Origin: Naasia sp.
GTDB taxonomy: Bacteria; Actinomycetota; Actinomycetes; Actinomycetales; Microbacteriaceae
Direction: 5' to 3'
Length of the DNA stretch: 45,153 nt
NCBI RefSeq assembly: GCF_025465545.1
Contig: NZ_JAODMK010000023.1
Coordinates: 1 to 45,153 of the forward strand
In this document: one piece after another, positions 1 to 12,975 of the stretch
Position numbering within the stretch: position 1 is the first letter of the stretch
Layout of the letters: each line of letters begins with the position of its first letter
Position numbers and translations under genes: made by a program
The notes under the pieces: model-generated
What the model saw: only the letters and a program-made list of their open reading frames with translations
Told to the model about the DNA's origin: nothing
Database searches by the model: none

Positions 1-691
1 AGCTGTTGCCGGTGGCGGTGATGCTGCCCGTCGTCCACGCCACTTCCACATCGATGCCCGGAGCACCGAAATCGACGGGCGGACGCGGGTTGTAGGCGAC
101 CTCGAACTGGTCCTGCCCCTCCCGCGCCGCGACCGAGAACACCGAGGCGTACTGCGAGGGATAGGTGGGTCCCGGCACGTTGTTCGCCGCGCAGACGAGC
201 ATGAGGTTGTGGAAGTAGGCCTCGTCGGCGAGCGCGTGCAGCGGGCCGAACCACTGCTCGCTCCGGCTGCTGAGGCTGAGGTTCGCCACCTGCATGCCGG
301 CGTCGATCGACCACCGCAGGGCGGCGGCGAAGAGGGCGCCGCGGGTGGTGAGGTTCCGGCCGAGTACCCGCACGCTGTAGATCTCCGCCTCGGGGGCGAG
401 CATCCGGATGATGCCGGCGCAGGCGGTGCCGTGGCCGTACAGGTCCTCGTGGGGCCCCTCCACGATGCGGAAGCCGGCCTGGCTGTCATCCGCTTCGATC
501 GCCACGCTGCCGGCCAGCCGGCCGACCCGCGGGTGATCCGCGGACACGCCGCTGTCGATCACCGCCACCTTCACCCCCTTGCCGGTCGCCGAGCCCCACG
601 CCCACTCTCGGGGCGGCGACGGAAGCGGTAGGGGGAAGGCCGGCGTCAGCTCCGCGTCGCTGAAGGCCGACGCCCATTCGGGAAGGCTCAC
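1..691 (-). CDS. Subtilisin-like (S8) serine protease, partial (C-terminus beyond left edge)
   Basis: The visible 230 residues form a subtilase core: the Asp motif VAVIDSGV (D46), the His motif GHGTACAGI (H87), an oxyanion Asn near CAANN (170-171), and ATGNS, whose Ser230, the last complete codon of the window, fits the nucleophile position. The GTG start at 691 overlaps the TGA of the upstream GAF gene (GTGA), so the two are probably translationally coupled. The N-terminus is a short Pro-rich stretch with no signal peptide and no evident propeptide, which points to an intracellular protease, unlike most S8 enzymes. Family and catalytic residues are clear; the substrate is unknown. The divergent DVEGH-repeat protein (3417-4055) is a natural candidate substrate by inference. 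Any extra C-terminal domain lies outside the window. Confidence 0.9.
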   Translation of the reverse strand, partial: MSLPEWASAFSDAELTPAFPLPLPSPPREWAWGSATGKGVKVAVIDSGVSADHPRVGRLAGSVAIEADDSQAGFRIVEGPHEDLYGHGTACAGIIRMLAPEAEIYSVRVLGRNLTTRGALFAAALRWSIDAGMQVANLSLSSRSEQWFGPLHALADEAYFHNLMLVCAANNVPGPTYPSQYASVFSVAAREGQDQFEVAYNPRPPVDFGAPGIDVEVAWTTGSITATGNS

Positions 692-1428
692 GCGCGGCTG
701 CGGGTGTACTCGAGGGAGGCGGTCAGCACGGTGAGCGCGAACTTCTGGCCTGCCGGTCCCGTCGACGAGAGCTGGTGGAAGGCGCGCACGAGCTCGGCCA
801 GCTCCTGATCGTCGTGTCCGGATTCGACCAGCGAATTGAGGGTGTCCGCGAACTCCGCCTCGTCCGCTGCGCCGGCGAGGGCGGTGAGCAGCACCGAGCC
901 GAGGCGGTCGTAAGTCCTCGTCAGTCGGACCGTGGTCGCCAGCTGGGAGCCGATGAAGCCGAGCACGTCGAGGTCGCGTCCGGTGTTCTCGTTCATCGCC
1001 CGGGCGTCGAGCACCTCGAGAACGCCGAGGACCTCTCCGTCGGCGCCGAGGAGTGGGGCGGCGAGGATGGAGGTCGGCACGTAGTTGGTCTCCTCCGCCA
1101 CGTCCCTCGCGAAGCGGGGGTCGACGCGCACATCGGCGATGGCGATCGGCTGCCCGGTCATCGCCACCCAGCCGGCGATGCCCCGCTCCACCTGCATCAC
1201 CTTTCCGGTGATCGCGTTTGCGCCGATGCCATTGGCAGCCACGAACCTGATCTCGTCCCCGCCCGCCTCGACGAGAGCGCAGGAGCAGGCCGCGGAGTCG
1301 AACAGTGCCCGGACGGCCGCCGTGGCCCGGGCGAGCTCATCGTCGAGGGAGGACGGGCGGCTCGCCGAGCCGAGCGCGTTGCCGAGCCGGGCGACAAGCG
1401 CGACCAGCTCGGGAGTAGGGGAGACCAT
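688..1428 (-). CDS. GAF-domain sensor protein
   Basis: The product is 246 aa from the ATG at 1428. Residues about 25-165 form a GAF domain: a helical start, the NGIG segment, the ERGIAGWVAMTGQPIAIADV segment typical of GAF folds, and an ILAAPLL...GVLEVLDAR strand pair. A helical tail follows, with no histidine kinase, cyclase or DNA-binding domain. GAF domains bind cyclic nucleotides or other small ligands or sense redox state; the ligand cannot be told here. It is the first gene of an operon with the S8 protease (4-nt overlap). A GTG at 1494 would add 22 residues unlike a GAF domain. I prefer 1428 because a TTGTCA/17 bp/CAGACT promoter ends 6 nt before it. Confidence 0.85.
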   Translation of the reverse strand: MVSPTPELVALVARLGNALGSASRPSSLDDELARATAAVRALFDSAACSCALVEAGGDEIRFVAANGIGANAITGKVMQVERGIAGWVAMTGQPIAIADVRVDPRFARDVAEETNYVPTSILAAPLLGADGEVLGVLEVLDARAMNENTGRDLDVLGFIGSQLATTVRLTRTYDRLGSVLLTALAGAADEAEFADTLNSLVESGHDDQELAELVRAFHQLSSTGPAGQKFALTVLTASLEYTRSRA

Positions 1429-1434
1429 CGCGCC

Positions 1435-1463
1435 AGTCTGGTGCGCGGGCACCCGTGTGACAA
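1435..1463 (-). promoter_or_regulatory. Putative promoter of the GAF-protease operon
   Basis: On the minus strand TTGTCA (1458-1463) and CAGACT (1435-1440) are separated by 17 bp, and the ATG at 1428 follows 6 nt after the -10. This fits a leaderless transcript. The -10 lacks the first T of TANNNT, so confidence is moderate. Confidence 0.4.
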
Positions 1464-1615
1464 CCGACGACGACCGAAAGCCGCGGGCGCTCACCTGCCC
1501 GGTATCTCATCCTTCCCTTGAAGGTCGAGTCATGGGAGCATCAGCGCACCAGTGCGCGCGCACGCCCCTGATCAGCGCGGGCTTCGGTCCGTCGGCCAAG
1601 CCGGAAGGAGCAGCT

Positions 1616-3283
1616 GTGGCCACACCGCTGAACCGCTATGCCGCGGCGTTCCGCTATCGCGACTTCCGCCTGCTGATCACCTCGTCCTTCATCAACTCGG
1701 TCGGCAGCTGGGCGGCGACCGTCGTCCTCGACGTCTACGTCTTCAACGTCACCGGCTCGCTGGGCTGGCTGGCCGCGATGGCCGCCGCCGGCTGGATCCC
1801 TGGCCTCCTCATCGCGCCCGTCGCCGGCGTGCTCGCGGACCGACTGGATCGCCGGAGGGTGATGATCGTCTCCGCCCTCCTCTCCGGCATCGTGGGGGTC
1901 GGATTCGTCCTCATCGTCGTGACGGACGCGCCCATCATCCTGATGCTGCTGCTCGGGATCGTCGCGTCCATCGTCCGCGCCCCCTATGGGCCGGCAGCGG
2001 GCGCGCTGACGCCCGAGGTGGTCGACGAGCAGGCGCTGCCCACCGCCAATGCGGTGTTCGCCGGCCTCGACAACATCGTCATCGTCATCGGACCGGCCAT
2101 CGGCGGGCTGCTCGTCCTGATCGACCAGCCCGCAATCGGTGTCGGGTTCAACGCCGCCAGCTATTTCGCAGCCGCGATCCTCGCCCTGTTCCTGCGGGTG
2201 CGCAGCCGCGGCGACGCGGCCCCCGGCGAACGGCTCGTGCGGCAGATCCTGGACGGGGTGAACGCGCTCCGGGCGACTCCCACCGCGGCCGTCCTCGTGC
2301 TCTTCGCCGCGCTCGACACGATGCTCGCCGGTGCCTACACGGTGGTGTACATCCCGATCAGCACGCACGTGGGCATGGGCACGCAGGGCTACGGCTACCT
2401 GCTCGCCGGCGCGGCCGTCGGTGGGATCGTCGGCGCCCTCGTCGCCGACCGGCTGAGCCGGGCCAGGAGGCTGGCTCCCATCATCGTCGGCGGCGTGGTC
2501 GTTCAGTCCATTCCCTACGCGCTCACCGCATTCACCGATCTGGCGGCGATCGGAATCGGGCTTCAGGTGCTGTCCGGCATCGGCATGGTGGTGGTGGACG
2601 TTGTCGCGCTCACTGCCATCCAGCGCGAGGTGGCCGCCGGACGGCTCAGCCGGGTGCTGTCGCTGCTCGACACCGTCGCGCTGCTGGCCAGCGTGATCGG
2701 CAGCATCGGGGCGGCCGCGCTGCTCTCGGCGCTGCCGCTCGAGGTCTCGCTCGTGCTGCTCGGCGGAGGCTTCACGCTGGTGGCGCTCGCGCTCGCGCCG
2801 GTGCTGGTTCGGACCGACCGCACCTCTGCGGCCCAGGCCGCGGTCCTCGCGGACCGGGTGCGGGTGCTCGACGGGATCCGGCTCTTCGCGCAGTCGTCCT
2901 ATGCGGTGAAGGAGCGGCTCGCGGGGGCGGTCGAGGTCCAGCAACTGGCCCCGGGTGACGTGCTGGTCCGCGAGGGCGAGGACGCCGACGCCCTGTGGGT
3001 GCTCGCCGACGGCGCGCTGTCGGTGACCTCCAGCACCGCGCCGGGCATTCCCGACGTCGTCGCGCCCGACGTGGTCGGCGAGCTCGGGGTGCTCACCGGC
3101 CTGCCGCGCACCGCGACGGTCGTGGCCGCGTCGCCGGCCACGTTGTGGCGAGTCAGCGCGGACGACTTCGTGGCGGCGATCGAGCCGCAGCGGCAGCCGC
3201 TGCTGCTGCTCGGGCCATCGATGGTGCGACTCCGCCGCACCCATCCCGACCTGGCCGCCACGGCAGCAGTGGGAGGGTCCTGA
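1616..3283 (+). CDS. MFS transporter fused to C-terminal cyclic-nucleotide-binding domain
   Basis: The product is 555 aa. Residues about 10-400 are a polytopic MFS_3-type transporter with roughly 12 hydrophobic segments and the loop DRLDRRRV between early helices. Residues about 410-540 form a cNMP-binding domain: GIRLFAQSS, the turn LAPGDVLVREGE, and the phosphate-binding cassette VVGELGVLTGLPRTATV with its Glu and Arg present. The start is GTG at 1616, preceded by a strong GGAAGGAG; the reading frame stays open far upstream, but that part has no MFS similarity. It is divergent from the GAF-protease pair and upstream of the DVEGH-repeat gene. The fusion suggests transport gated by a cytoplasmic nucleotide-like ligand. 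Substrate unknown; export of a peptide from the neighbouring gene is inference. Confidence 0.9.
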   Translation: MATPLNRYAAAFRYRDFRLLITSSFINSVGSWAATVVLDVYVFNVTGSLGWLAAMAAAGWIPGLLIAPVAGVLADRLDRRRVMIVSALLSGIVGVGFVLIVVTDAPIILMLLLGIVASIVRAPYGPAAGALTPEVVDEQALPTANAVFAGLDNIVIVIGPAIGGLLVLIDQPAIGVGFNAASYFAAAILALFLRVRSRGDAAPGERLVRQILDGVNALRATPTAAVLVLFAALDTMLAGAYTVVYIPISTHVGMGTQGYGYLLAGAAVGGIVGALVADRLSRARRLAPIIVGGVVVQSIPYALTAFTDLAAIGIGLQVLSGIGMVVVDVVALTAIQREVAAGRLSRVLSLLDTVALLASVIGSIGAAALLSALPLEVSLVLLGGGFTLVALALAPVLVRTDRTSAAQAAVLADRVRVLDGIRLFAQSSYAVKERLAGAVEVQQLAPGDVLVREGEDADALWVLADGALSVTSSTAPGIPDVVAPDVVGELGVLTGLPRTATVVAASPATLWRVSADDFVAAIEPQRQPLLLLGPSMVRLRRTHPDLAATAAVGGS

Positions 3284-3416
3284 TGCCCGGGCTGCTGGGT
3301 CGGGAAGCGGACACATCGGGTGTTCGCCGGCCGACAGTTCACGCCCGGATCCCGCTGCACACTGCTCCTATCGCATCCTGCGAGACCTTCTGACCCGCTA
3401 TAGAAAGAAGAGCACC

Positions 3417-4055
3417 ATGAACGACAACCAGAACCGCACCGACCGGTCCGCCGCCGAGGATGTTGACGGACACCTGATCAAAAGTGGTCGCATCGTCGAG
3501 GATGACGTCGAGGGCCACGGCATCATGAGCGGTCGCATCGTCGAGGACGACGTCGAGGGCCACGCCGCTCGCTCCGGTCGCATCGTCGAGGACGACGTTG
3601 AGGCGCACGGCTTCCGCGGCAACGTCGTCGACGAAGATGACGTCGAGGGCCACGCCGCTCGCTCCGGTCGCCTCGTCGAGGACGACGACGTGGAAGGCCA
3701 CGTCTTCCGCGGCGGCGACACCGAGGACGACGAGGTGAGGGGGCACTCCTTCCGGGGAGGCGTCACCGACGAGGACACCGAGGGCCACGCCGCGCGCACC
3801 GGTCACGTCAACGAGGACGACGTCGAGGGCCACGGCGGCAGGTTCCCCGTCGCACCCGAGGACGACGTGGACGGCCACGGCGTGCGCGTCCGGTTCCTCG
3901 CGCCTCAGGACGAGAACGACACCGAGGGGCACACCGTCCGCTCCGGCCGCGGTGCCGACGACGACGAAGACACCGAGGGGCACCTTGCCCGCTCGGGCCG
4001 CGTCGTGCAGGACGACGACGACGTCGAGGGGCACGCTGCCCGCTCTGGCCGCTGA
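3417..4055 (+). CDS. Acidic 13-unit DVEGH-repeat protein
   Basis: The product is 212 aa and consists almost entirely of a ~15-residue unit with consensus (V)EDDVEGHxxRSGR(xV). Repeat His residues fall at 19, 34, 49, 64, 79, 95, 110, 124, 139, 154, 172, 189 and 206. The acidic-Gly-His core is nearly invariant, while the 2-6 residues after His vary (AARSGR, GFRGN, VFRGG, VRVRF). There is no Cys, signal peptide or membrane segment. Adjacent copies are nearly identical at DNA level (3549-3597 versus 3639-3687, one mismatch in 49), so the array has expanded recently. The ATG follows AGAAAGAAGAG. It resembles a multi-core precursor or a metal-binding repeat protein; I recognise no named family. Its association with a cytosolic S8 protease and a transporter is the main clue. 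Confidence 0.85.
   Translation: MNDNQNRTDRSAAEDVDGHLIKSGRIVEDDVEGHGIMSGRIVEDDVEGHAARSGRIVEDDVEAHGFRGNVVDEDDVEGHAARSGRLVEDDDVEGHVFRGGDTEDDEVRGHSFRGGVTDEDTEGHAARTGHVNEDDVEGHGGRFPVAPEDDVDGHGVRVRFLAPQDENDTEGHTVRSGRGADDDEDTEGHLARSGRVVQDDDDVEGHAARSGR
3426..4055 (+). repeat. Tandem coding repeat, ~45-bp period
   Basis: The DNA is a degenerate tandem array of about 13 units, mostly 45 bp long, with units of 42-54 bp towards the 3' end. It is in frame and built around GACGTCGAGGGCCAC. The most similar copies are 90 bp (two units) apart. Confidence 0.85.
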
Positions 4056-4082
4056 ACTGGGCAGCCGGCCTGACAAGACCAG

Positions 4083-4136
4083 GACCCGGGACGACGACCG
4101 CGCGATGGAGGCGCACCGCGGTCGTCGTCTCGGGTC
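4083..4136 (+). terminator. Strong hairpin downstream of the DVEGH-repeat gene
   Basis: The arms 4083-4102 and 4117-4136 pair over 20 bp with a single mismatch and a 14-nt loop. There is no T-run, as is common for actinobacterial terminators. It separates the left cassette from the J-domain gene. Confidence 0.75.
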
Positions 4137-4164
4137 CCGCTCAGGCGGACGCAGGGCGAGCGGT

Positions 4165-4170
4165 TAGCCT
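4165..4170 (+). promoter_or_regulatory. Possible -10 (TAGCCT) of the J-domain gene
   Basis: TAGCCT fits TANNNT and lies between the hairpin at 4083-4136 and the ATG at 4242, which would give a leader of about 65 nt. No clear -35 is visible. Confidence 0.3.
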
Positions 4171-4241
4171 AGGGGGCGCGTTCGCCGGGTTCCCGGGGCG
4201 AATGCCCGATCCTCGTCCGTTCAGCAGCAAGGGTTCCGCCC

Positions 4242-5156
4242 ATGTCCGACAGTCCCGTGTCGGATTCGCCGTACGCGGTTCTCGGAGTGCCGACGGACGC
4301 GAGCGACGACGACCTCCGCAAGGCTTATCGCCGGCTGCTTCGCGAGACGCATCCCGATACCGGCGGCAGCCCCGCCCGATTCATCGCCGTCCAGCAGGCA
4401 TGGGAGCTCGTCGGCACTCCCGAGGCGCGCGCCGCCTTCGATCGCGGGCAACCGGCAGGGGGAGGGGAGCGGCCGTCGTGGGCGCCCCCCAAGCCCTCTG
4501 GCGCGCAGACAGGCCGGCCGAGCGCTCGCTCCTACGGCCATCCCGGCGGATGGCGGCGCGAGCGCTACCTCCGACTCCTCGCGGAGTGGGCCGGTAGGGG
4601 GACGACGGTGCCGGATCCGTATGATCCGGCCGTGGTGCGGTCGGCTCCGCGCGAGATCCGCCGGATCCTGGCCGACGCGCTGGCCGAGGAGGCCACGGCC
4701 CGGCTGGTGAGCGACCTGGGGATCGGCTTCACCGTCTGGCACGACGTCGCAACGGGCGACCCCGCCGACAAGCTCGACCACGTGGTGCTCGGCCCGACCG
4801 GGCTGTTCGCGCTGCTGTCGGAGGACTTCGGTGGACCGGTGCAGGTGCGCCGGGGCGAGGTCGACGGAGTGTCGGTCGAAGGCGACAAGCCGCTGCAGGC
4901 GCTCGCGTCCAGGGCCAAGGTCCTCGCGAGGGCGGCCCGGGTGAAGTTCGGCGGCCTGCTGCTCGTGGTGCCGGATGACGCGCTCGCCGAGCCGGTCATC
5001 CCGGCGGGGGCGGCGCGGGGGGCCGCGGTCGCCGTGGTGCGCCGGTCCGTGCTTCCGCACGTGCTCCGGGAGGGACTGCCCGGGGCCCGGGTGGTCGGGG
5101 GCAACGAGCTGTTCGACGTGCGCTCGCGCCTGCAGGCCGCCGTCACCTTCGTCTGA
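4242..5156 (+). CDS. J-domain protein with degenerate NERD-like C-terminal domain
   Basis: The product is 304 aa. Residues 8-70 are a J-domain (YAVLGVP..., HPD at 37-39), which stimulates Hsp70 ATPase. There is no Gly/Phe region, zinc finger or DnaJ substrate domain, so it is not a canonical DnaJ; that gene is at 42368. The second half (about 145-300) contains LDHVVLGPTGLFALLS, then PLQALASRAKVLARA and GGLLLVVPDD, a layout like NERD nuclease-related domains. The usual D-x-K step after the DHVV strand appears as SEDFGG, so nuclease activity is doubtful. It may be a DnaK co-chaperone directed to some nucleic acid or membrane task. The J-domain is certain, the NERD reading is moderate. Confidence 0.8.
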   Translation: MSDSPVSDSPYAVLGVPTDASDDDLRKAYRRLLRETHPDTGGSPARFIAVQQAWELVGTPEARAAFDRGQPAGGGERPSWAPPKPSGAQTGRPSARSYGHPGGWRRERYLRLLAEWAGRGTTVPDPYDPAVVRSAPREIRRILADALAEEATARLVSDLGIGFTVWHDVATGDPADKLDHVVLGPTGLFALLSEDFGGPVQVRRGEVDGVSVEGDKPLQALASRAKVLARAARVKFGGLLLVVPDDALAEPVIPAGAARGAAVAVVRRSVLPHVLREGLPGARVVGGNELFDVRSRLQAAVTFV

Positions 5157-5182
5157 GCAGCCTCCCTCCGTCCGTCCGTCCG

Positions 5183-5268
5183 CCCTCCCTCAGCAGGCAG
5201 TTTCGCCAACATGCCCGCAGAGCGGGCCGTTCCGCCTGTCGAAGGCCGTTCTGCCTGCTGTGGGAGAG
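5183..5268. repeat. Intergenic inverted repeats and short CCGT microsatellite
   Basis: CAGCAGGCAG (5191-5200) is the inverse complement of 5251-5260, and the pairing extends outward over CCTCCC/GGGAG with mismatches. An inner hairpin GCCCGC-AGA-GCGGGC lies at 5213-5227. A run of CCGT units sits just upstream (about 5165-5182). It may terminate transcription of the J-domain gene. Confidence 0.45.
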
Positions 5269-5320
5269 GGTGACGAGGACGGGGCGGGGGCGGGAGGGGC
5301 AGGGAGGCGCCGATGCGAAG

Positions 5321-5326
5321 TAGCCT
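5321..5326 (+). promoter_or_regulatory. -10 element (TAGCCT), leaderless start of EI24 gene
   Basis: TAGCCT ends 6 nt before the GTG at 5333, so transcription would start at or next to the start codon. No Shine-Dalgarno is present. Confidence 0.5.
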
Positions 5327-5332
5327 CGTCGA

Positions 5333-6145
5333 GTGGCCGATCCCGTCGACTCCCGCACCAGCGGCTCCCGCTCCTTCCTCGGCGGTGTGGGCGACTTCCT
5401 CCGCGGCTTCCGGGTGTGGGGGACCTCTCCGGGACTCATGGCGCTCGGTGCCGTGCCGGCGCTGATCGTCGGGGTCGTCGTGCTCGCGCTCCTCACGCTG
5501 CTGGCGCTCAACCTCCCCGTCCTCACCGAGTGGCTCACCCCGTTCGCCCAGGACTGGGACGAGCTCTGGCGGAGCAGTGTCCGGCTCGCCGTCGCCGCGG
5601 CGCTGTTCGTGATCGCGGTGCTGCTCGCGGTGTCGACCTTCACCGCGCTCACCCTGGCTGTGGGGGACCCGTTCTACGAGCGGATCTGGCTGGGCGCCGA
5701 ACGGCGGCTCGGCTCGTTCGATGAGCCGAAGGAGCTCGGCTTCTGGCCCTCGCTCCGGCGGGGGATCGCAAGCGGGAGCAGGCTGGTCGGGCTCTCGGTG
5801 CTGCTCGGCATCGCGGTGTTCGCGCTCGGCCTGGTGCCGGTCGTCGGCGGGGTGCTGGGCTTCGCGCTGGGCGCCGTCGGCGGCGGCTGGCTCATCGCGG
5901 CGGAGCTGCTCGCCCGCCCGTTCGACTCCCGCGCCATCGATTCGCGGGAGCAGCGGCGGCTGCGGCGCCGGTCGACAGGACGGGTGCTCGGCTTCGGGGT
6001 CGCCGTCTACGTCCTGTTCCTGCTGCCATTCGGGGCTCTCTTCGCCACGCCGGCGGCCGTCGCCGGTTCCGCGGTGCTCGCCCGGCGCCTCCTCGAGCAC
6101 CGCGTCACCGGGGCGGGTGGGGGGACGAGCGTCAGAGCGTCCTGA
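5333..6145 (+). CDS. EI24/CysZ-like integral membrane protein
   Basis: The product is 270 aa. It begins GGVGDFLRGFRVWGTSPGLM, the typical opening of bacterial EI24-domain proteins, followed by hydrophobic segments at about 35-60, 83-108, 150-175, 176-195 and 225-255. Family members include E. coli CysZ (sulfate uptake); the actinobacterial branch has no assigned substrate. The GTG start is supported by a -10 element 6 nt upstream. The last 14 bp overlap the 3' end of the convergent 2H phosphoesterase gene. Confidence 0.8.
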   Translation: MADPVDSRTSGSRSFLGGVGDFLRGFRVWGTSPGLMALGAVPALIVGVVVLALLTLLALNLPVLTEWLTPFAQDWDELWRSSVRLAVAAALFVIAVLLAVSTFTALTLAVGDPFYERIWLGAERRLGSFDEPKELGFWPSLRRGIASGSRLVGLSVLLGIAVFALGLVPVVGGVLGFALGAVGGGWLIAAELLARPFDSRAIDSREQRRLRRRSTGRVLGFGVAVYVLFLLPFGALFATPAAVAGSAVLARRLLEHRVTGAGGGTSVRAS

Positions 6146-6638
6146 GCGGCGTGACGGTGCGGGTGGTCGACTCCCAGAGCCGGGCCTCCGAGACGGTGGC
6201 CGGGATCGCCCGGCGGACGTCGAGCAGTCCGAGCGCCTCCGCCAGCAGCGGCGGGGTGAGGCGCCGGGCCAGGGTGACGTGCGGCGTCCACGAGCCGGGC
6301 AGCGTCAGCGCATCGATCCGCGCCTCCCGGGCGACTCGGGCGTGCAGGTCGGCATGCACGGCGAGGAGCTCGTGAGTCGCCCGCACCATGCGGGCGAGCA
6401 CGAAGCCCCGGCGAGCCGATCCCAACACGACCGGACTCGCCACCGCGATCTCGAGTGGCAGCCCGGAGATCGGGGGCGGCTCGAGTGGCGTCTCGGAGTA
6501 GATCAGGGTGACATGCGGCCGGTTCGACTCGCCCGTGTGGCGCGCCTGGCTCGGCAGGCCCGCATCCGCGAGCGTGGCCCACTCGCCGCGGAGCTCCTGC
6601 TCCGCTGTGTCGTCCAGGAGCAGCTCGATGCTCGGCAT
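6132..6638 (-). CDS. 2'-5' RNA ligase family (2H phosphoesterase) protein
   Basis: The product is 168 aa with the two signature motifs of the 2H superfamily, PHVTL at 41-45 and PHVTL at 119-123, spaced as in bacterial LigT/ThpR-like enzymes. These hydrolyse cyclic phosphodiesters in RNA or nucleotides; the physiological substrate here is unknown. It lies 18 bp downstream of the acyl-CoA dehydrogenase gene on the same strand, so the two may be cotranscribed. It ends inside the 3' end of the EI24 gene. Confidence 0.85.
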   Translation of the reverse strand: MPSIELLLDDTAEQELRGEWATLADAGLPSQARHTGESNRPHVTLIYSETPLEPPPISGLPLEIAVASPVVLGSARRGFVLARMVRATHELLAVHADLHARVAREARIDALTLPGSWTPHVTLARRLTPPLLAEALGLLDVRRAIPATVSEARLWESTTRTVTPLRTL

Positions 6639-6656
6639 GGCCCGCCTACCGGGAGC

Positions 6657-7811
6657 TCAGGGCAGCGGCCCGAGCAGCGCGGTCGCCACGGTGCTGTGCG
6701 CGGACTCGTCGTCGGAGGGGTGGAACATGCCGGCGAGCACGTCGCGGTAGAGGCGGGAGAGTTCGCTGGAGTTCGCGTACGACGAGCCGCCCGACACCCG
6801 GATCGCGGCGTCGACCACGACCCGCGCCGTCTCGGTGGCGCGGACCTTGACCCCGACGAGCTTGCGGAACCACTGCGCCCCGTGGTCCGCGAGCTCGTCC
6901 ACGTCTCGCGCGATCGCGTCGATCTGCGGAGCGAGCGCGTCCTGCGCGAGCGCCGCGTCCGCGATGCGCCAGCGGATGTCCGGATCGTGGGCGAGCGGGG
7001 CGCCGCCGTTTCTCATCGAGGTGCGGCGATGCGCGGACGCGGTGGCCAGCTCAAGCGCTCGCGCCCCGATGCCCGTGTAGACCGATGCGAGGAGCACCTC
7101 GAAGTTCGCGAAGATCCCGAAGATGAGCGGATCCGGGTTGGGACCCGGATCGAGCCGCCGGAACACCCGCTCCGGTGGCGCGTACACGCCGTCGAGGACG
7201 GTCGTCGAGCTCTGAGTCGCGCGCTGACCCAGGGTGTCCCAGTCGTCGAGGATGCGGTAGCCGGCCGCCTCCCGATCGATGAAGGCGTGCACGAGCTTCG
7301 GGGCGTCGGCCGAGACCGTGTCGAGTCCGAACAGGCCGAGCCTCGTCCAGGCGGGCGAGAGGGAGGTGAACACCTTGGTGCCCGTGAAGCGGTAGCCGCC
7401 GTCCTCCTGCGGCACCGCCTCGGTGCGGGAGCCGAACAGGACGAGATCGTTGCCCGCCTCGCTGATGCCGAAGCCGAGCACCTCGCCGGCCCCCGCCTCC
7501 TCGAGCAGGAAGTCGAGGAAGTCCAGCCCGCGATCGTGCACGACCTTGGCGACTCCCGTCCACACCAGGTGCATGTTCACGCCGAGCGCGGTCGCGGGCG
7601 CGGCGGCAGCCAGTCGCTGCTGCTCCCGTGCGGTCTCGCGCAGCGTGAGGCCCAGGCCGCCGAACTCGGCAGGCACCATGGCGCGGAGATAGCCGGCTGC
7701 GGTCAACTCCTCGAGGTCCTCGGTGAAGAAGCGGTTGCCCCGGTCGTACTCGGGGGCGCGGGCGGCGATCCGCTCGAGGAGCGCCTCGTCGAGCACCGTG
7801 CGGTCGGCCAT
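6657..7811 (-). CDS. Acyl-CoA dehydrogenase family flavoprotein
   Basis: The product is 384 aa, the full length for the acyl-CoA dehydrogenase fold. An N-terminal helical domain contains AMVPAEFGGLGL, the mid strand domain has GFGISEAGND and FTGTKVFTSLSPAW, and the C-terminal helices include VSGGSSYANSSELSRLYRDV followed by a FHPSDDESAH tail. It uses FAD and would oxidise an acyl-CoA or a related substrate. The typical catalytic Glu is not evident in the usual place, so a DszC/SfnB-like flavin oxygenase or non-classical dehydrogenase is possible. AAAGGA precedes the ATG. The substrate cannot be told from context. Confidence 0.85.
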   Translation of the reverse strand: MADRTVLDEALLERIAARAPEYDRGNRFFTEDLEELTAAGYLRAMVPAEFGGLGLTLRETAREQQRLAAAAPATALGVNMHLVWTGVAKVVHDRGLDFLDFLLEEAGAGEVLGFGISEAGNDLVLFGSRTEAVPQEDGGYRFTGTKVFTSLSPAWTRLGLFGLDTVSADAPKLVHAFIDREAAGYRILDDWDTLGQRATQSSTTVLDGVYAPPERVFRRLDPGPNPDPLIFGIFANFEVLLASVYTGIGARALELATASAHRRTSMRNGGAPLAHDPDIRWRIADAALAQDALAPQIDAIARDVDELADHGAQWFRKLVGVKVRATETARVVVDAAIRVSGGSSYANSSELSRLYRDVLAGMFHPSDDESAHSTVATALLGPLP

Positions 7812-7869
7812 CGGCGTCCTTTCGATTCGCCACTCACGCTACCCGTCTCCGCTCCGCGCCCGGACGGGC

Positions 7870-8703
7870 TCAACCGGCGGCGAGCATGCCCCCTCCCGTG
7901 GCGAGCATGGCGACGAGGACGAGGGCGGCCAGCAGCACGAGCCCGAACAGGACACGGGTGATCCTCCGCGCGAGGACCCGCCGGATCCCGACGATCGCCA
8001 GCACGAGAACGACGGCCGCGCCGACGACGGCCCCGACGCTGCCGACCGCCGCGGCGGCCACGGCGGCCCCCACCAGCAGCGCGGCGAACGCGACCGTTCC
8101 CGCGGCTCGCAGCCCCATCCGGTGCGGCAGCCCCCGGATGCCCGTGCGCCGGTCGTCCTCGAGGTCGGGCAGCACATTGGTGAAGTGCGCGGCGACGCCG
8201 AGCAGAGCGCCACCCAGGAGCGCCCACCAGGCCGCGCCCCGGGGCGGGGCCGCGGCGAGCGTGACGACGGCGGGCAGCAGGCCGAAGCTGACGAGGTAGG
8301 GCAGCACCGAGAGCGGAGTGGCCTTGAGTCCGAGATTGTAGGCCCAGGCCGACACCACGAACACCGCATGAGCCAGGCCGGCGGGCGGGCCGAGCAGGAA
8401 GGCCAGGAGGATCGAGGCGCCGGCGGCCAGGAAGGCGCCCGTGCGGACGGTGCGGACCGAGACGTCGCCGCGAGCGACCGGCTTGTCGGTCCGCCCCGCG
8501 AGGCGGTCCCTGTCGACGTCGACCCAGTCATTGGACCAGCCGATCGAGAGCTGGTTGAGCACGAACGCGAGGGTGACGACCAGCACTCGCCACGGCTCGA
8601 GTCCCACGGCGATCGCCAGGGTCAGGGCGACGACGGACACCGCTGCGGCGGGCGCCGGATGGGAGGACAGGAGCAGCGCGGAAACGGGCGACCGGCGGCT
8701 CAC
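7870..8703 (-). CDS. UbiA-family prenyltransferase
   Basis: The product is 277 aa and polytopic (8-9 hydrophobic helices), with both Asp-rich motifs of intramembrane aromatic prenyltransferases: NDWVDVDRD (N58, D62, D66) and NVLPDLEDD (D180, D184). It transfers a polyprenyl group from a polyprenyl diphosphate to an acceptor. The acceptor (naphthoate, homogentisate, a (bacterio)chlorophyll-type or DGGGP-like molecule) cannot be fixed from sequence, and no quinone pathway gene is adjacent. The GTG start at 8703 is supported by TAGCAT 6 nt upstream. Confidence 0.88.
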   Translation of the reverse strand: MSRRSPVSALLLSSHPAPAAAVSVVALTLAIAVGLEPWRVLVVTLAFVLNQLSIGWSNDWVDVDRDRLAGRTDKPVARGDVSVRTVRTGAFLAAGASILLAFLLGPPAGLAHAVFVVSAWAYNLGLKATPLSVLPYLVSFGLLPAVVTLAAAPPRGAAWWALLGGALLGVAAHFTNVLPDLEDDRRTGIRGLPHRMGLRAAGTVAFAALLVGAAVAAAAVGSVGAVVGAAVVLVLAIVGIRRVLARRITRVLFGLVLLAALVLVAMLATGGGMLAAG

Positions 8704-8709
8704 CCGGTC

Positions 8710-8715
8710 ATGCTA
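8710..8715 (-). promoter_or_regulatory. -10 element (TAGCAT), leaderless start of UbiA gene
   Basis: On the minus strand TAGCAT is followed by 6 nt and then the GTG at 8703. Confidence 0.5.
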
Positions 8716-8750
8716 GCGGCGCGGGAGGGCGCCCAGCGGCCGGGCGTATC

Positions 8751-9965
8751 GTGAGCCGGGTGCGAGGGATCCGAGGCATCGCCGTCCTGGCAGCGCTGGC
8801 CGTCCCGGTCCTGCTGGGCGGGTGCGGCGGCGCCTCGACGTCCGCCGGCGGCTCGTCCTCCGCCCCAGCGGCGCCTGTGCCGAGTGCCGCCAGCCCGACC
8901 CCCACTGTCTCCGCCGAGGAGCAGGAAGCGGCGTCGCGCCTGGCCGCCATGAGCGTGCGCGAGAAGCTGGCCACCATGCTGATGCTGCACCGGCCGGGCA
9001 CCGACCCCGCCGATCTCCACGACTTCATGGCAGGAACGGGCGCGGGCGGATTCATCCTGATGGGCGACAACGTGGCCGGCTCCGTGCAGGATCTCGCCGG
9101 CACCGCAGCCGGCCTCCAGGTGGACGACTCCCTGCCGCCTCTCATCGGCATCGACCAGGAGGGCGGCGACGTCTCCCGCATCGGTGTGGACGACGGGCCG
9201 GGCGCCGCCGAGCTCCGCGACGAGCCGCCCGCCGCGTCTCGGACCGCATTCGCGGCTCGTGCCGCGCTCGTGCGGGAGGCAGGGGCCAACCTCAACTTCG
9301 GGATCATCGCCGACGTCACCGGGGACCCCGACTCATTCATCGCCGATCGTGTGCTCGGCTCCGACCCCGATCGGGCGGGCGACCGGGTGGAGCAGGCCGT
9401 CCTCGGCGAGCGGGGAATCGTGCTCAGCACCCTCAAGCACTTCCCCGGCCACGGGCTCACCGCGGAGAACTCGCACACCTCGCTGCCGCAGAGCGACATC
9501 AGCCTGGAGGACTGGCGGAAGGGACCAGCTCTGCCCTTCGAGCGCGGCATCGGCGCGGGCGCCGAAGCGGTGATGTTCGGCCATCTCCGCCTCGACTCGG
9601 TCGACTCGGCTCCGGCCAGCCTGTCCGCGGCCTGGCACCGCATCCTCCGCGACGAGCTGCACTTCGAGGGCCTCGCCGTGACCGACGACATGCTCATGCT
9701 CCAGCACTCGGGCAACGACACGTACGCTGATCCGCTGGCGAACGCCATCCAGGCGATCGACGCGGGGAACGACGTGCTCCTCTACGTGCTGGCGGAGGAC
9801 CCCGAGGTGTCGGGAGTCGACCCGGAGGAGCTGCTCAGCGGCCTGGTGACCGCCGTCGAGGATGGCGGCATACCGGAGGAGCGCGTGGACGACTCCGTGC
9901 GCCGCCTCCTGCTCACTCGGATCGGCATCCGGGATCACTCGGGGACAGTTCCCGCAGCAGGCTGA
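8751..9965 (+). CDS. Glycoside hydrolase family 3 lipoprotein (NagZ-like beta-N-acetylhexosaminidase)
   Basis: The product is 404 aa. A lipoprotein signal ends LLGGC (Cys25), followed by an Ala/Ser/Pro-rich linker to about 60. The single GH3 TIM-barrel domain shows DQEGGDVSRI, KHFPGHG (229-235) with a following SH dyad (ENSHTSLP) typical of NagZ-type enzymes, and the nucleophile Asp in VTDDMLML (D312). It is expected to remove N-acetylglucosamine from muropeptides or other glycans outside the membrane. There is no second alpha/beta domain, as usual for NagZ. The 3' end overlaps the convergent hydrolase gene by 53 bp. Confidence 0.9.
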   Translation: MSRVRGIRGIAVLAALAVPVLLGGCGGASTSAGGSSSAPAAPVPSAASPTPTVSAEEQEAASRLAAMSVREKLATMLMLHRPGTDPADLHDFMAGTGAGGFILMGDNVAGSVQDLAGTAAGLQVDDSLPPLIGIDQEGGDVSRIGVDDGPGAAELRDEPPAASRTAFAARAALVREAGANLNFGIIADVTGDPDSFIADRVLGSDPDRAGDRVEQAVLGERGIVLSTLKHFPGHGLTAENSHTSLPQSDISLEDWRKGPALPFERGIGAGAEAVMFGHLRLDSVDSAPASLSAAWHRILRDELHFEGLAVTDDMLMLQHSGNDTYADPLANAIQAIDAGNDVLLYVLAEDPEVSGVDPEELLSGLVTAVEDGGIPEERVDDSVRRLLLTRIGIRDHSGTVPAAG

Positions 9966-10842
9966 GGAGGCGCTCCGGCTGCTCGACCTGCGGGAAGTGG
10001 CCGCAGTCCTCGAGCACCTCGGTGCGGGCGGTGGGAAGCAGCTCCCGGAGGCCGTCCAGGTCTCCTCGAGCGGTGAAGCGGTCGCGGTCCCCGCTGAGGG
10101 CCACGACCGGGGCCACGATCGCGCGCCAGCGGCCCACGTCATAGTCGCGCACGGCGAGCGCCGCCGCGACGAACGAGCGCGGGCGCAGGTCGACGGCGAG
10201 GTCCCGAACGGTGTCGGCCGGTGCCTGCAGCGGGTGCCGGAAGAGGGGCGCGGCGAGGAGCCGCACCAGCCCCATTCGCCCGAGTCCCCGGACCAGTGCG
10301 CGAATCGGCGGCTCGATCGGAGCGACTGCCGCGAGAGCGAAGCGCAGCAGCACGAGCGCGGGCAAGCGTCCGCGTCGGCCGAGCGTGCGCATCGGGGCGC
10401 GAAGCGACTCGAGCACGCCGGCGAGGCTCGCCGAGACGCACAGCACACCGACCGTGCGCACCGGCTCCCGGCACGCGAGGTGCAGGGCGAGCAGCCCTCC
10501 CATCGAGTGTCCCAGCACGCGCCAGCGGGAATAGCCGCAGGCCTCCGCCGCGGTGACGAGGGTCTCCGTCATGTCGTCGACGGTGGCCCGGGTGGGGCGG
10601 GCGAGGGCGCCGGACGCGCCCCAGCCGGGCAGGTCGACCGCCACGACGTCGCGCAGCGGGTCGCCGCCGTCCTCGGCTCGGCGCAGCAGCTCGCGCCAGG
10701 TGCGCCAGGAGCCTGCGGCGCCGTGCACGAGGATGAGGGCGGTGTCGCTCGAGCGGGTCGCGGCGGCGTGCACGGTCATCGGGCCGAGGGGAGTGGCGAC
10801 CCGGCGCTCGACGAGCCCGAGGTCGGAGGTCGGCGATGTCAC
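9913..10842 (-). CDS. Alpha/beta hydrolase
   Basis: The product is 309 aa. The oxyanion motif LVHGAAGSW lies near 38-46, the nucleophile elbow is GHSMGG (S113), an acid is likely in SGDRDRF, and His282 sits in CGHFPQVEQPERL. A cap region spans about 130-220. The GTG at 10842 overlaps the TGA of the upstream FUSC gene (GTGA), so translation is probably coupled; an internal ATG 21 codons later is an alternative. The substrate is unknown. The 3' end lies inside the end of the GH3 gene on the other strand. Confidence 0.87.
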   Translation of the reverse strand: MTSPTSDLGLVERRVATPLGPMTVHAAATRSSDTALILVHGAAGSWRTWRELLRRAEDGGDPLRDVVAVDLPGWGASGALARPTRATVDDMTETLVTAAEACGYSRWRVLGHSMGGLLALHLACREPVRTVGVLCVSASLAGVLESLRAPMRTLGRRGRLPALVLLRFALAAVAPIEPPIRALVRGLGRMGLVRLLAAPLFRHPLQAPADTVRDLAVDLRPRSFVAAALAVRDYDVGRWRAIVAPVVALSGDRDRFTARGDLDGLRELLPTARTEVLEDCGHFPQVEQPERLLSLLRELSPSDPGCRSE

Positions 10843-11876
10843 TCGCCGACGATCTCCTCGCGGACCCGGCGGAGGTCCTCCAGGAGGGCCCCGATGAGGA
10901 TCCAGTGCCGCGGGTTCGGCTGGAGGACCACGAGCGGACTGGTGAGCGCGGGCAGCTCCGTCGTCCGCGGCTCGGCTTCGCCGGCGGGCGATCCGGGGGC
11001 GCGGACGAGGAGGCGCAGGTCGTGCGCGGCCCGGCGCAGCTCCTCGGCGATGCCCCGCACCGCGGGCTCGTCGGCGAGGGACGGATCCCAGTGGTCGCGC
11101 AGGGCGCGAGCCATGCCGACCACTTGGGTGACGAGCGGCTCCATCCGGGCCAGCAGTGCGGTGTCGCGTTCGAGCTGATCCCGATGCCGGGATCGGCGGG
11201 GGTTCAGCGCGAGGCTCTCCCGGCCGCTGCGGATCGCATCTCCCGTCCTGTCGCGGAGCGCCCGCAGCTCGCGTGCCGAGCGGAGGGCGACGTCCAGACG
11301 CTCGCGGTCGGTCCCGCCCGTGATCGAGTCGGCGAGCAGCTCCAGCTGCGTCGCGATGCTGCCGCCGAGCCGAAGCACGGCGGCGCGAGCGGGGCCGGCG
11401 AGAAGGGGAGGCACGATCGCCACGTTGATCAGCAGGCCGACCGCCGCGCCGATCACCGTCTCCACCACTCGGGCGGCGGCATAGCCGGGGGTCGCGGCGC
11501 CGATGGAGAGCACCAGCATCGCGCTGATCGGGATCTGCACCGAGGAGCCCGGGGTGAGCCGAAGCGCCCACGCGACGAGCAGAGATGCGACGATCGCGGC
11601 GAGGACGAGCCAGTTCGCGTCACCGAACAGGATGGACGCGCCGAGGGCGACGAGCACTCCGACGAGCACGCCGACACTGCGCTCCACCGCCTTGCCGAAG
11701 GACTGGTTGACGCTCGGCTGCACGACGAGCAGCGCGGCCACCGAGGCGAAGACGGGGATCTGCTCGGGAAACACGAGCAGCGCCGTGAACCAGGCGAGGA
11801 TCGCGGCGATCGCAGTCTTCAGCACCTGCAGAAGGGGCACTCGTGCATTCGCCCGCACCAGGCCCGTCAGACGCAC
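10839..11876 (-). CDS. FUSC / aromatic acid exporter-like membrane protein
   Basis: The product is about 345 aa from the GTG at 11876. The N-terminal half holds about six closely packed hydrophobic helices ([47 protein letters not shown] and so on) in the layout of fusaric-acid-resistance/ArAE proteins. [22 protein letters not shown] is the characteristic loop. The C-terminal half is cytosolic, helical and rich in Arg and Leu. It probably exports aromatic acids or similar compounds. The frame is open to an ATG at 11939 inside the preceding gene; I prefer the GTG because it lies 17 nt after that gene's stop and starts the conserved part. Confidence 0.75.
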
Positions 11877-11892
11877 GGCTCCAGCGTAGGGA

Positions 11893-12975
11893 TCACGGGG
11901 CGGAGAAGGCCGCGAACGCACGCGCGTCGGCATCTGCATCGACGGGCGAGTCCGGGTCGAACGGTTCCGAGGTCACCGTGAACCCACCCCGGCGGCGGAC
12001 CGCCCGCCAGGTTCCCAGCACCCGGCCGGCGCGGGCGAGCACGGGCCGGAACAGCCCGTTCCCGCCGGGCGACACCCGCTCGGCGTGCTCCGGGGCGAGG
12101 CTGGCCGACCGGTCGGCGTAGCCGAGCAGCAGCTCGTCGAACGCGGGAAGGAGCCGGACGGCCTCGCCGGGAACGACGTGAAGGGCGACGGGGTCGACGG
12201 CGGCGGACCCGCGGCCGACCCACAGCTCGCCGCTCTCGCCGGCCAGGGGAATCAGTCCGCCGGCCGCCTCAGCGGTGGCGGCGGCGGCCTCCGTCGTGGT
12301 TATGCCGGCCCACCAGGCGAGGTCGCCGACCGACGCGGGGCCGTGGCTGGTGAAGTAGCGGGGGGCGAGCACCCGGAGGGCCCCGGAGCGGTCGGGATCG
12401 GGTCCCGGCACCCAGTCGTCGAGCAGGACCACGGTGTGCTGCCTGCCCTCGAGGGGACCGAAGCAGACCACGCGGGTGAGGGCGAGGTGCAGCAGCAGAT
12501 GGGACCCGCGCTGGCCGGAGGTGTCCAGCCCGTCGGCGTCGAACGCGGCCATCAGCTGGGTGCGCTGCATCGGCCGGCGGTCGGCCAGCAGGCGGAGTGC
12601 GAGCGCCTCCGCGTGCATCAGGTCCTCCGCCTCGAGACCGAGCTGCGCCCGCCGGGTGCGGGTGGCGCGGATCGTCCGCTCAGCGGAGACGGCGAGGAGG
12701 AGGCGCAGGTCCTCGGCGGCGGTGATCTGCAGGGTTCCCCGGAGCGGCCAGGACCGCACGATGCGCGCCCCGTCGAGGGCGGCATGGATGTCGGCGACCG
12801 TCTCACCGGAGCGGCCGCGAAGCGCGAGCGCCCACCGTGCGCCGGCGAAGTCCTGGGCCTGGAGCGCGAGCATCCAGCGCGCGGTGTCCTCCGCCGTTCC
12901 GGGATCGGCGACGCCGAGCAGCTGATTGGCCGCCCGCATGCGTGCGACTTCCGGGAGAGACAGAACCGCCGGCAT
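11893..12975 (-). CDS. AlkZ-like DNA glycosylase (winged-helix HTH_42 family)
   Basis: The product is 360 aa. The fold is the tandem winged-helix family of AlkZ and YcaQ, with [12 protein letters not shown] carrying the Q39-x-Q41 pair (QAQ). This is the catalytic motif of AlkZ-type glycosylases, which unhook DNA interstrand crosslinks, whereas the YcaQ branch carries Q-x-D. The conserved [10 protein letters not shown] and a C-terminal [15 protein letters not shown] are also present. AlkZ itself gives self-resistance to azinomycin; most homologues lie outside such clusters and their lesion is unknown. The ATG at 12975 follows TAGTAT by 7 nt; a longer frame to 13047 adds poorly conserved residues. 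Confidence 0.85.

Follow-up and report, generated by a model that had tools for sequence, protein, structure and literature searches.

A DVEGH-repeat protein encoded beside a cytosolic S8 protease, a GAF protein and a cNMP-fused transporter: a candidate peptide-processing cassette of Actinomycetota and Chloroflexota

Introduction

What is the task of a protein made of 13 short acidic units when it is encoded next to a subtilisin-family protease, a sensor-domain protein and a transporter with a fused ligand-binding domain? This question is raised by the left end of a contig of Naasia sp. (NZ_JAODMK010000023.1, assembly GCF_025465545.1), which is 45,153 nucleotides long and is called the window in the following (contig C10 of a genome of 2.76 Mb in 53 contigs). 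An initial annotation, made from the letters of the window, had proposed an undescribed cassette in which the repeat protein is cut to peptides under ligand control and transported. We find that the cassette is real and wider than first described, and it was not found in the papers searched: no title on DVEGH repeats or S8-GAF peptide cassettes turned up in this literature, nor did these papers contain an experiment on the DVEGH cassette. We consider it rather probable, judging from gene content and conservation, that a multi-copy precursor is processed to small peptides by this cassette and that a cyclic nucleotide controls the process.

Results

Architecture of the cassette

The arrangement reported for the window, i.e., a 13-unit repeat protein, an S8 protease, a GAF protein and a transporter of the major facilitator superfamily (MFS) fused to a cyclic nucleotide monophosphate (cNMP)-binding domain, was confirmed by coordinates and Pfam matches. 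The repeat gene (3417..4055, + strand; ATG at 3417, stop at 4055) encodes a candidate multi-copy peptide precursor of 212 amino acids (aa), whose 13 units carry the motif [DE][VT]x[GA]H, most typically DVEGH, at a spacing of 14–18 residues. Numbering the motif from P5 to P1, the units have D (12) or E (1) at P5, V (10) or T (3) at P4, E (10), D (2) or R (1) at P3, G (12) or A (1) at P2 and H (13) at P1. The unit form EDDVEGHxxR, as originally given, holds for most units, since Arg stands at the third position after the motif His in 11 of the 13. Contig C48 of the same genome holds two paralogues, which are shorter (117 and 84 aa). The DVEGH motif is preserved via synonymous codons, and one C48 paralogue spells its five copies in five different ways at the DNA level. 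No match to the repeat protein was found in Pfam, NCBIfam or PADLOC, a profile of the family gave no match in PDB up to an E-value of 1, and the two matches in PHROGs are both at chance level (E 0.02–0.03).

On the opposite strand, the S8 protease (2..691, − strand; PF00082, 3.7e-18) has no visible signal peptide. Its gene is cut by the contig end just past the codon of the catalytic Ser (bases 2–4), and 230 of about 275 aa are present. All 35 aligned sequences, that of the window among them, have the active-site residues Asp, His, Asn and Ser. The GAF gene (688..1494, − strand; PF01590, 3.3e-14; GTG start at 1494, with ATG at 1428 as an alternative) overlaps the S8 start with its stop by 4 bp. 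GAF adjoins S8 in 34 of 35 loci, the 35th being a contig that begins at S8. The missing end of the protease was recovered from contig C49 (G000:C49), whose end (L087, 1–701) overlaps window positions 1–701; the two agree fully at both ends of the overlap and have 34 mismatches further in. C49 supplies the remainder of S8, followed by a convergent gene for a cyclase of the CHASE2 type. The suggestion of the initial annotation that a modifying enzyme could lie past the left edge is not supported by this. A second cassette copy in this genome was considered and judged unlikely, as the overlap resembles one locus split by (strain) variation.

Divergent from S8-GAF, the MFS-cNMP gene (1616..3283, + strand; MFS_1, 2.3e-31; cNMP_binding, 1.5e-14) uses a GTG start behind GGAAGGAG, and the C-terminal cNMP domain is encoded at about 2939–3184. 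Its phosphate-binding cassette reads GELGVLTGLPRTA. Every one of the 19 MFS-cNMP proteins that score 400 bits or higher contains the pattern GE..L..R[TS]A, and the same strict pattern is present in 15 of the 21 proteins of the CRP family described below.

Conservation of the cassette in other genomes

A strict two-copy DNA pattern of the repeat detected only the window's own genome among 299 genomes of a family sample. A slightly looser pattern was scanned over the genomes of 84,980 species and gave 33 stretches (L handles in the following). Of these, 28 encode acidic DVEGH proteins, in 26 genomes of Actinomycetota and Chloroflexota; L043 (the same as L031) and L024 (on the same contig as L051) were not counted as additional genomes, and five stretches (L020, L027, L028, L035, L039) were excluded by eye as not being of the acidic DVEGH kind. 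Across the 26 genomes, the motif is conserved, and the linkers differ by lineage. The repeat genomes, many of which are metagenome assemblies, belong to Nocardioides, other Nocardioidaceae, Aeromicrobium, Naasia, Geodermatophilaceae, Jatrophihabitans, Frankiales, Acidimicrobiia, Thermoleophilia, other Actinomycetota, and Chloroflexota including Limnocylindrales and Dehalococcoidia. Two scaffolds of Naasia lichenicola (3 and 4; L098 and L053) are 100% identical over 17.5 kb, probably by assembly duplication, and were counted as one cassette.

The association of the genes proved to be conserved; its lack in other genomes is what the initial annotation had named as refuting the cassette idea. Of the 25 repeat genomes searched, 22 contain a homolog of the window S8 (E ≤ 1.5e-57; the next best match has 7.9e-13), and L049, outside these 25, has one as well. 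In 22 of 26 genomes, a single stretch carries S8, GAF and repeat gene, with at most 210 bp between S8 and GAF and 0.2–2.8 kb from S8 to the nearest repeat gene. In the other four, the repeat gene is near a contig end; next to it are a cyclase in L026, MFS-cNMP plus CRP in L042, a cyclase plus CRP in L046, and CRP in L034, whose genome has CRP-GAF-S8 on a separate short contig (L065). An origin of the repeat as a low-complexity or chance artefact was rejected because of the linkage across two phyla and the synonymous codon change, and a phage or plasmid origin was rejected as the DNA pattern was unmatched in viral contigs and no match was found in plasmids or phages.

Further genes belong to the same neighborhood. 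MFS-cNMP is encoded in 19 of 26 repeat genomes (16 of at least 400 bits, three cut at contig ends). A CRP-family regulator is likewise found in 19 of 26, 17 times on the stretch itself and additionally on L065 and L110, the latter being the contig of L026. Ten of the 26 genomes encode a cyclase-AAA-TPR protein (nine at 400 bits or more, plus L060), and L070 contains a possible fragment. The cyclase motifs FxDxVGxT and KFIGDAV are conserved in 11 of 11 strong matches, two of them in the Streptomyces-type loci introduced below, and the cyclase of L062 carries a NACHT/NB-ARC domain. In the Naasia relative, CRP is 8.8 kb away, and CHASE2-cyclase and CRP are both within 10 kb of S8. Separately, a repeat protein with DVSGHGYKWEDMTG-type units is encoded beside a cyclase-NB-ARC-TPR gene on L111 (8152–8673). 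With genes called by a heuristic finder, the protein clusters that three or more repeat-type loci have in common, besides those of the cassette, consist of SDR dehydrogenases, of ABC transporters and of an artefact antisense to S8. A RimK-like ATP-grasp gene directly behind MFS-cNMP in L074 (13195–14190) is the sole case among the compared loci and the one RimK-like gene among 10 neighbors scanned in relatives.

In an unbiased phylum sample of 396 genomes, the repeat profile finds four genomes, and S8 at E ≤ 1e-40 occurs in 11, the window's own included. In a midpoint-rooted tree of S8, repeat-type loci are placed on both main branches; thus, the motif tracks the protease family and not a single clade.

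A candidate operator upstream of the repeat genes

The region between MFS-cNMP and the repeat gene contains two candidate CRP-type operators on the + strand, GGGTCGGGAAGCGGACAC (3297..3314) and, 23 bp from it, GTGTTCGCCGGCCGACAG (3320..3337). The underlying palindrome TGTCG-N6-CGACA has the spacing of CRP sites. Allowing up to two mismatches, it was found in the 200 bp preceding the gene for 21 of 24 repeat genes, and still before 18 of 21 once the three genes that had suggested the pattern (those of the window and the two C48 paralogues) were removed. Other spacers gave 2–7 of 24, a parallel test with shifted arms 1–9, and permuted arms a mean of 3.1 with the true arms included. The density of the operator upstream of repeat genes is 10.6 times that in the rest of the loci, and in several repeat genes the sites are paired at a distance of about 23 bp. 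The CRP proteins of the cassette have a common recognition helix, G[GA]TR[PQ][ST]VN or close to it, and a candidate CRP of the window genome, on contig C26, is alike. TGT-N10-ACA palindromes and a CRP-family gene occurring together point to a CRP-type regulon. Two other propositions were discarded. The classical CRP site TGTGA-N6-TCACA precedes repeat genes in 2 of 24 regions, the same as shuffles; and the operator is not rare genome-wide, as the 2.76-Mb window genome contains three exact sites, which is about chance, one of them before a repeat gene. An exact TGTCG-N6-CGACA was also observed about 150 bp before a secreted-looking protein of 173 aa (L009, 7281–7951; G000:C48), which is encoded 2 kb from the C48 repeat paralogues and is possibly a further member of the regulon.

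The S8-GAF pair and the motif in RiPP-type clusters

The ten other S8 genomes of the phylum sample all have a GAF gene at S8 (10/10). In five of them (L088, L089, L092, L096, L097), a protein with the motif is encoded on the stretch examined: L089 contains repeats with GQ replacing GH, L092 has DVEAH, and L096 and L097 show PEVEAH, PEVQAH and PEVVAH. L093–L095 form one family of S8-GAF pairs with no motif protein found nearby. Among these loci are clusters of known kinds for ribosomally synthesized and post-translationally modified peptides (RiPPs). In L088 (genome G620, 140–12523), a LanL of 680.9 bits (cut-off 650) marks a class IV lanthipeptide cluster, which also holds S8-GAF, CRP and an ABC exporter with a fused cNMP domain; the precursor of this cluster has an NHLP-like leader scoring below the cut-off and a single AEVVGH, 7 kb from S8. 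L097 encodes an aroma-sacti protein (74.7 bits; cut-off 30) together with a radical SAM protein.

The genus of L097, for which we use the tentative label “Streptomyces-type,” contains S8 in 40 of 199 genomes, and GAF adjoins S8 in all 38 newly examined loci. A short open reading frame with [DE]V[EQV][AG]H was found in 32 of these 38, mostly with one copy per protein. Six permuted motifs were found in 0–2 of 38 and a seventh (perm1) in 14, where EVVAH fits both perm1 and the real pattern. The motif is lacking in L119, L121–L124 and L141, of which L121 and L124 are short contigs. Radical SAM (32/40), haem-oxygenase-like (32/40) and aroma-sacti genes (35/40) are frequent in the Streptomyces-type loci, which have no CRP gene at the threshold used. 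A typical precursor-like protein is that of L113, MSENT...NDETPEVEAH-SVLDLQ...SCVSVISVV, and L128 encodes a precursor-like protein of 48 aa with an exact DVEGH before SISEELEVDAPVLDVNFGC. Besides these, three-unit proteins with EPEVVAH...WCGVHQE-like units were seen in L097 (16666–16941), L130 (17147–17680) and L133 (16697–18292), close to S8-GAF and radical SAM; they are candidate multi-core precursors with Trp-Cys cores.

Flanking features

A strong terminator-like hairpin (4082..4137, + strand; −58.4 kcal/mol and z of −5.0 for the stretch 4056–4150) follows the repeat gene 3′, with no run of T (U in the transcript) after it. The next genes of the window (4242–6145 by Pfam) encode a DnaJ-domain protein with a weak NERD match (4242–5156, directly after the hairpin) and EI24. 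A weak DnaJ match exists in L033 also; DnaJ was otherwise not seen with the cassette.

Discussion

A proposed mechanism

The genes and their conserved association, the catalytic and ligand-cassette residues, the operator, and a motif common with RiPP-type precursors are observed at the sequence level; from them we infer cleavage, the cut position, the ligand, export, and the biological role, which may be that of a signal or an antimicrobial. Since precursors of several kinds share one motif and are accompanied by the same S8, DVEGH is best read as the recognition site of that protease, with a cut after His. We propose that a cyclic nucleotide is supplied by a class III cyclase, which is of the CHASE2 type at the contig end matching the window and of the AAA-TPR type in many relatives, and that the nucleotide-bound CRP-family regulator would turn on the repeat gene via the TGTCG-N6-CGACA operators. 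The cytosolic, GAF-partnered S8 would then recognize each [DE]Vx[GA]H and most likely cut behind His. In the window, this would release a 19-residue N-terminal piece, twelve pieces of 14–18 residues and the C-terminal AARSGR. With ligand bound to its cNMP domain, the MFS-cNMP protein would then export the product; the presence of this domain on two unrelated exporters, MFS in the repeat-type loci and ABC in L088, suggests ligand-gated export. The proposal of the initial annotation, with the repeat protein cut to small peptides under ligand control and transported, gains support from the precursor-like motif proteins with S8-GAF in RiPP clusters and from the CRP-type operator, its cleavage, ligand and transport steps being putative.

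A number of observations weigh against peptide production under cyclic-nucleotide control. The C48 repeat paralogues are without a cassette within the 19 kb examined around them. Among the four repeat-bearing genomes of the phylum sample, only two, one being the window's own, have S8 at E ≤ 1e-40; the remaining two are the L026 genome, with cyclases and CRP on its contig, and the genome of L111, an 8.8-kb contig that encodes, besides its repeat protein, the cyclase-NB-ARC-TPR gene but no S8, GAF or CRP. In 7 of 23 aligned repeat proteins, 11–20 residues follow the last motif, leaving no short core at this end. MFS proteins are not the usual exporters of peptides. No modifying enzyme recurs in the set of repeat-type loci, enzymes elsewhere in the genomes not having been searched for. 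L091 has only a loose form of the motif (DDTQGF), and the stretches of L090 and L093–L095 show no motif protein near S8. The operator is nearly absent at Streptomyces-type precursors (2/29). Further, the SVLDLQ that follows the motif in some of these precursors resembles part of a class III leader, so that the motif there may not be the border between leader and core.

Alternative explanations

A true RiPP system with the gene of its modifying enzyme at another place in the genome, in which the repeat protein is modified in trans and then cut by S8, is unlikely. It would account for S8-GAF accompanying radical SAM and LanL enzymes in other loci and for the RimK-like ATP-grasp gene adjoining MFS-cNMP in L074. 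However, this ATP-grasp gene is known from a single locus, only SDR and ABC-transporter clusters recur beyond the cassette in at least three repeat-type loci, and Cys is found in none of the 23 aligned repeat proteins.

It is quite unlikely that the repeat protein serves as a pseudo-substrate array which inhibits or docks the S8-GAF pair while the real target of the protease is elsewhere. Docking would be equally compatible with a short conserved motif, linkers that vary, copy numbers that differ and the presence of several genes in a genome. On the other hand, the motif stands singly in small precursor-like proteins of RiPP clusters, where docking makes little sense, and 16 of the 23 aligned repeat proteins end 2–7 residues past the last motif.

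We regard as very doubtful a storage, metal-binding or stress function of the acidic repeat protein with degradation by the cytosolic S8 on a signal, for which the germination protease degrading spore proteins offers an analogy. The sequence is indeed rich in acidic residues and His, and protease and sensor domains are near. Nevertheless, this explanation accounts neither for single-motif precursor-like proteins and cNMP-fused exporters (MFS or ABC) nor for lineage-specific linkers between fixed motifs. Finally, a coincidental neighborhood can practically be dismissed: two of the three repeat genes of the window genome are without S8 on their stretch, but the linkage is common to 22 of 26 genomes in two phyla and involves a kind of S8 that is otherwise rare (11/396, own genome included).

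Processing of a multi-copy precursor is our preferred explanation. A more specific version of it, which we put forward tentatively, is an undescribed peptide-messenger system: a GAF-gated subtilisin would cleave an unmodified multi-copy prohormone at DVEGH within the cytosol, and a cyclic-nucleotide-gated MFS protein would release it, with a cyclase and a CRP-family switch in control and an S8-GAF module common to this system and several RiPP classes.

Significance

The analysis names a processing module (S8 and GAF, joined by a cNMP-fused exporter, a cyclase and CRP) and the motif that this module probably recognizes, [DE]Vx[GA]H. With both in hand, genomes of Actinomycetota and Chloroflexota can be searched for new peptide precursors, and precursors without a nearby modifying enzyme, which an enzyme-based search would miss, become findable. 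If the proposed mechanism holds, cyclic-nucleotide signaling is tied to the maturation and export of bacterial peptides.

Comparison with known systems

Cyanobactin precursors carry repeated recognition sequences. The cyanobactin proteases PatA/PatG are also of the S8 family (PMC10885120). However, the PatA/PatG model reached 33 bits in the relative L136, at a cut-off of 421, and gave no match to the window S8 at E ≤ 0.1, which sets the cassette apart from cyanobactins. The best NCBIfam neighbor of the window S8 is QhpE, the S8 protease of quinohaemoprotein amine dehydrogenase, but with 95.6 bits it scores below the QhpE cut-off of 165. The mycosin model TIGR03921 gave 81.3 bits (cut-off 278.75), which does not support a mycosin of type VII secretion.

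A further group for comparison is that of the LanP-type leader proteases ElxP and NisP. The site of ElxP is given as (D/E-5)(L/V-4)xx(Q-1) (PMC10885120), and in this register the acidic P5 and the Val at P4 of the cassette motif match, next to the common S8 fold. P1 is His in the cassette and rarely Gln, one repeat family (L089) having Q at this position like the ElxP site. Unlike LanP-type proteases, the cassette S8 is coupled to a GAF gene and has no visible signal peptide, and in the repeat type it is paired with a multi-copy substrate and not with lanthionine enzymes.

With Pycsar, the cassette has a class III cyclase and cNMP-binding effectors in common, and PADLOC reported matches to PycC and effectors. 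These matches span general domains only (cyclase and cNMP stretches), for which reason a defence system was rejected; the GAF protein has no PADLOC match, and S8 has only a general subtilase match plus a weak one to IetS.

Two kinds of RiPP cluster contain the S8-GAF pair itself. The aroma-sacti radical SAM clusters (NCBIfam NF045560) share this pair, the motif in short proteins and, in most cases, the cyclase family, but they have their own radical SAM and haem-oxygenase-like genes, no CRP operator, and no protein of the DVEGH-repeat kind was seen in them. The class IV lanthipeptide cluster L088 is alike in S8-GAF, CRP and a cNMP-fused exporter; in contrast to the repeat type, this exporter is an ABC protein, the precursor is NHLP-like with a single motif, and LanL is present. 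As the repeat-type loci have no modifying enzyme in common, they fall outside RiPPs proper on this feature as tested, although the system may work like a RiPP.

For the link between a nucleotide ligand and peptide export, HetC of Nostoc can be taken as a precedent. It is proposed to export a peptide and has a ligand domain of the cNMP type as well as peptidase residues that are essential (PMC10986499). HetC is a single ABC-C39 protein that binds ppGpp, whereas the cassette distributes the corresponding parts over a separate S8 protease and an MFS-cNMP fusion.

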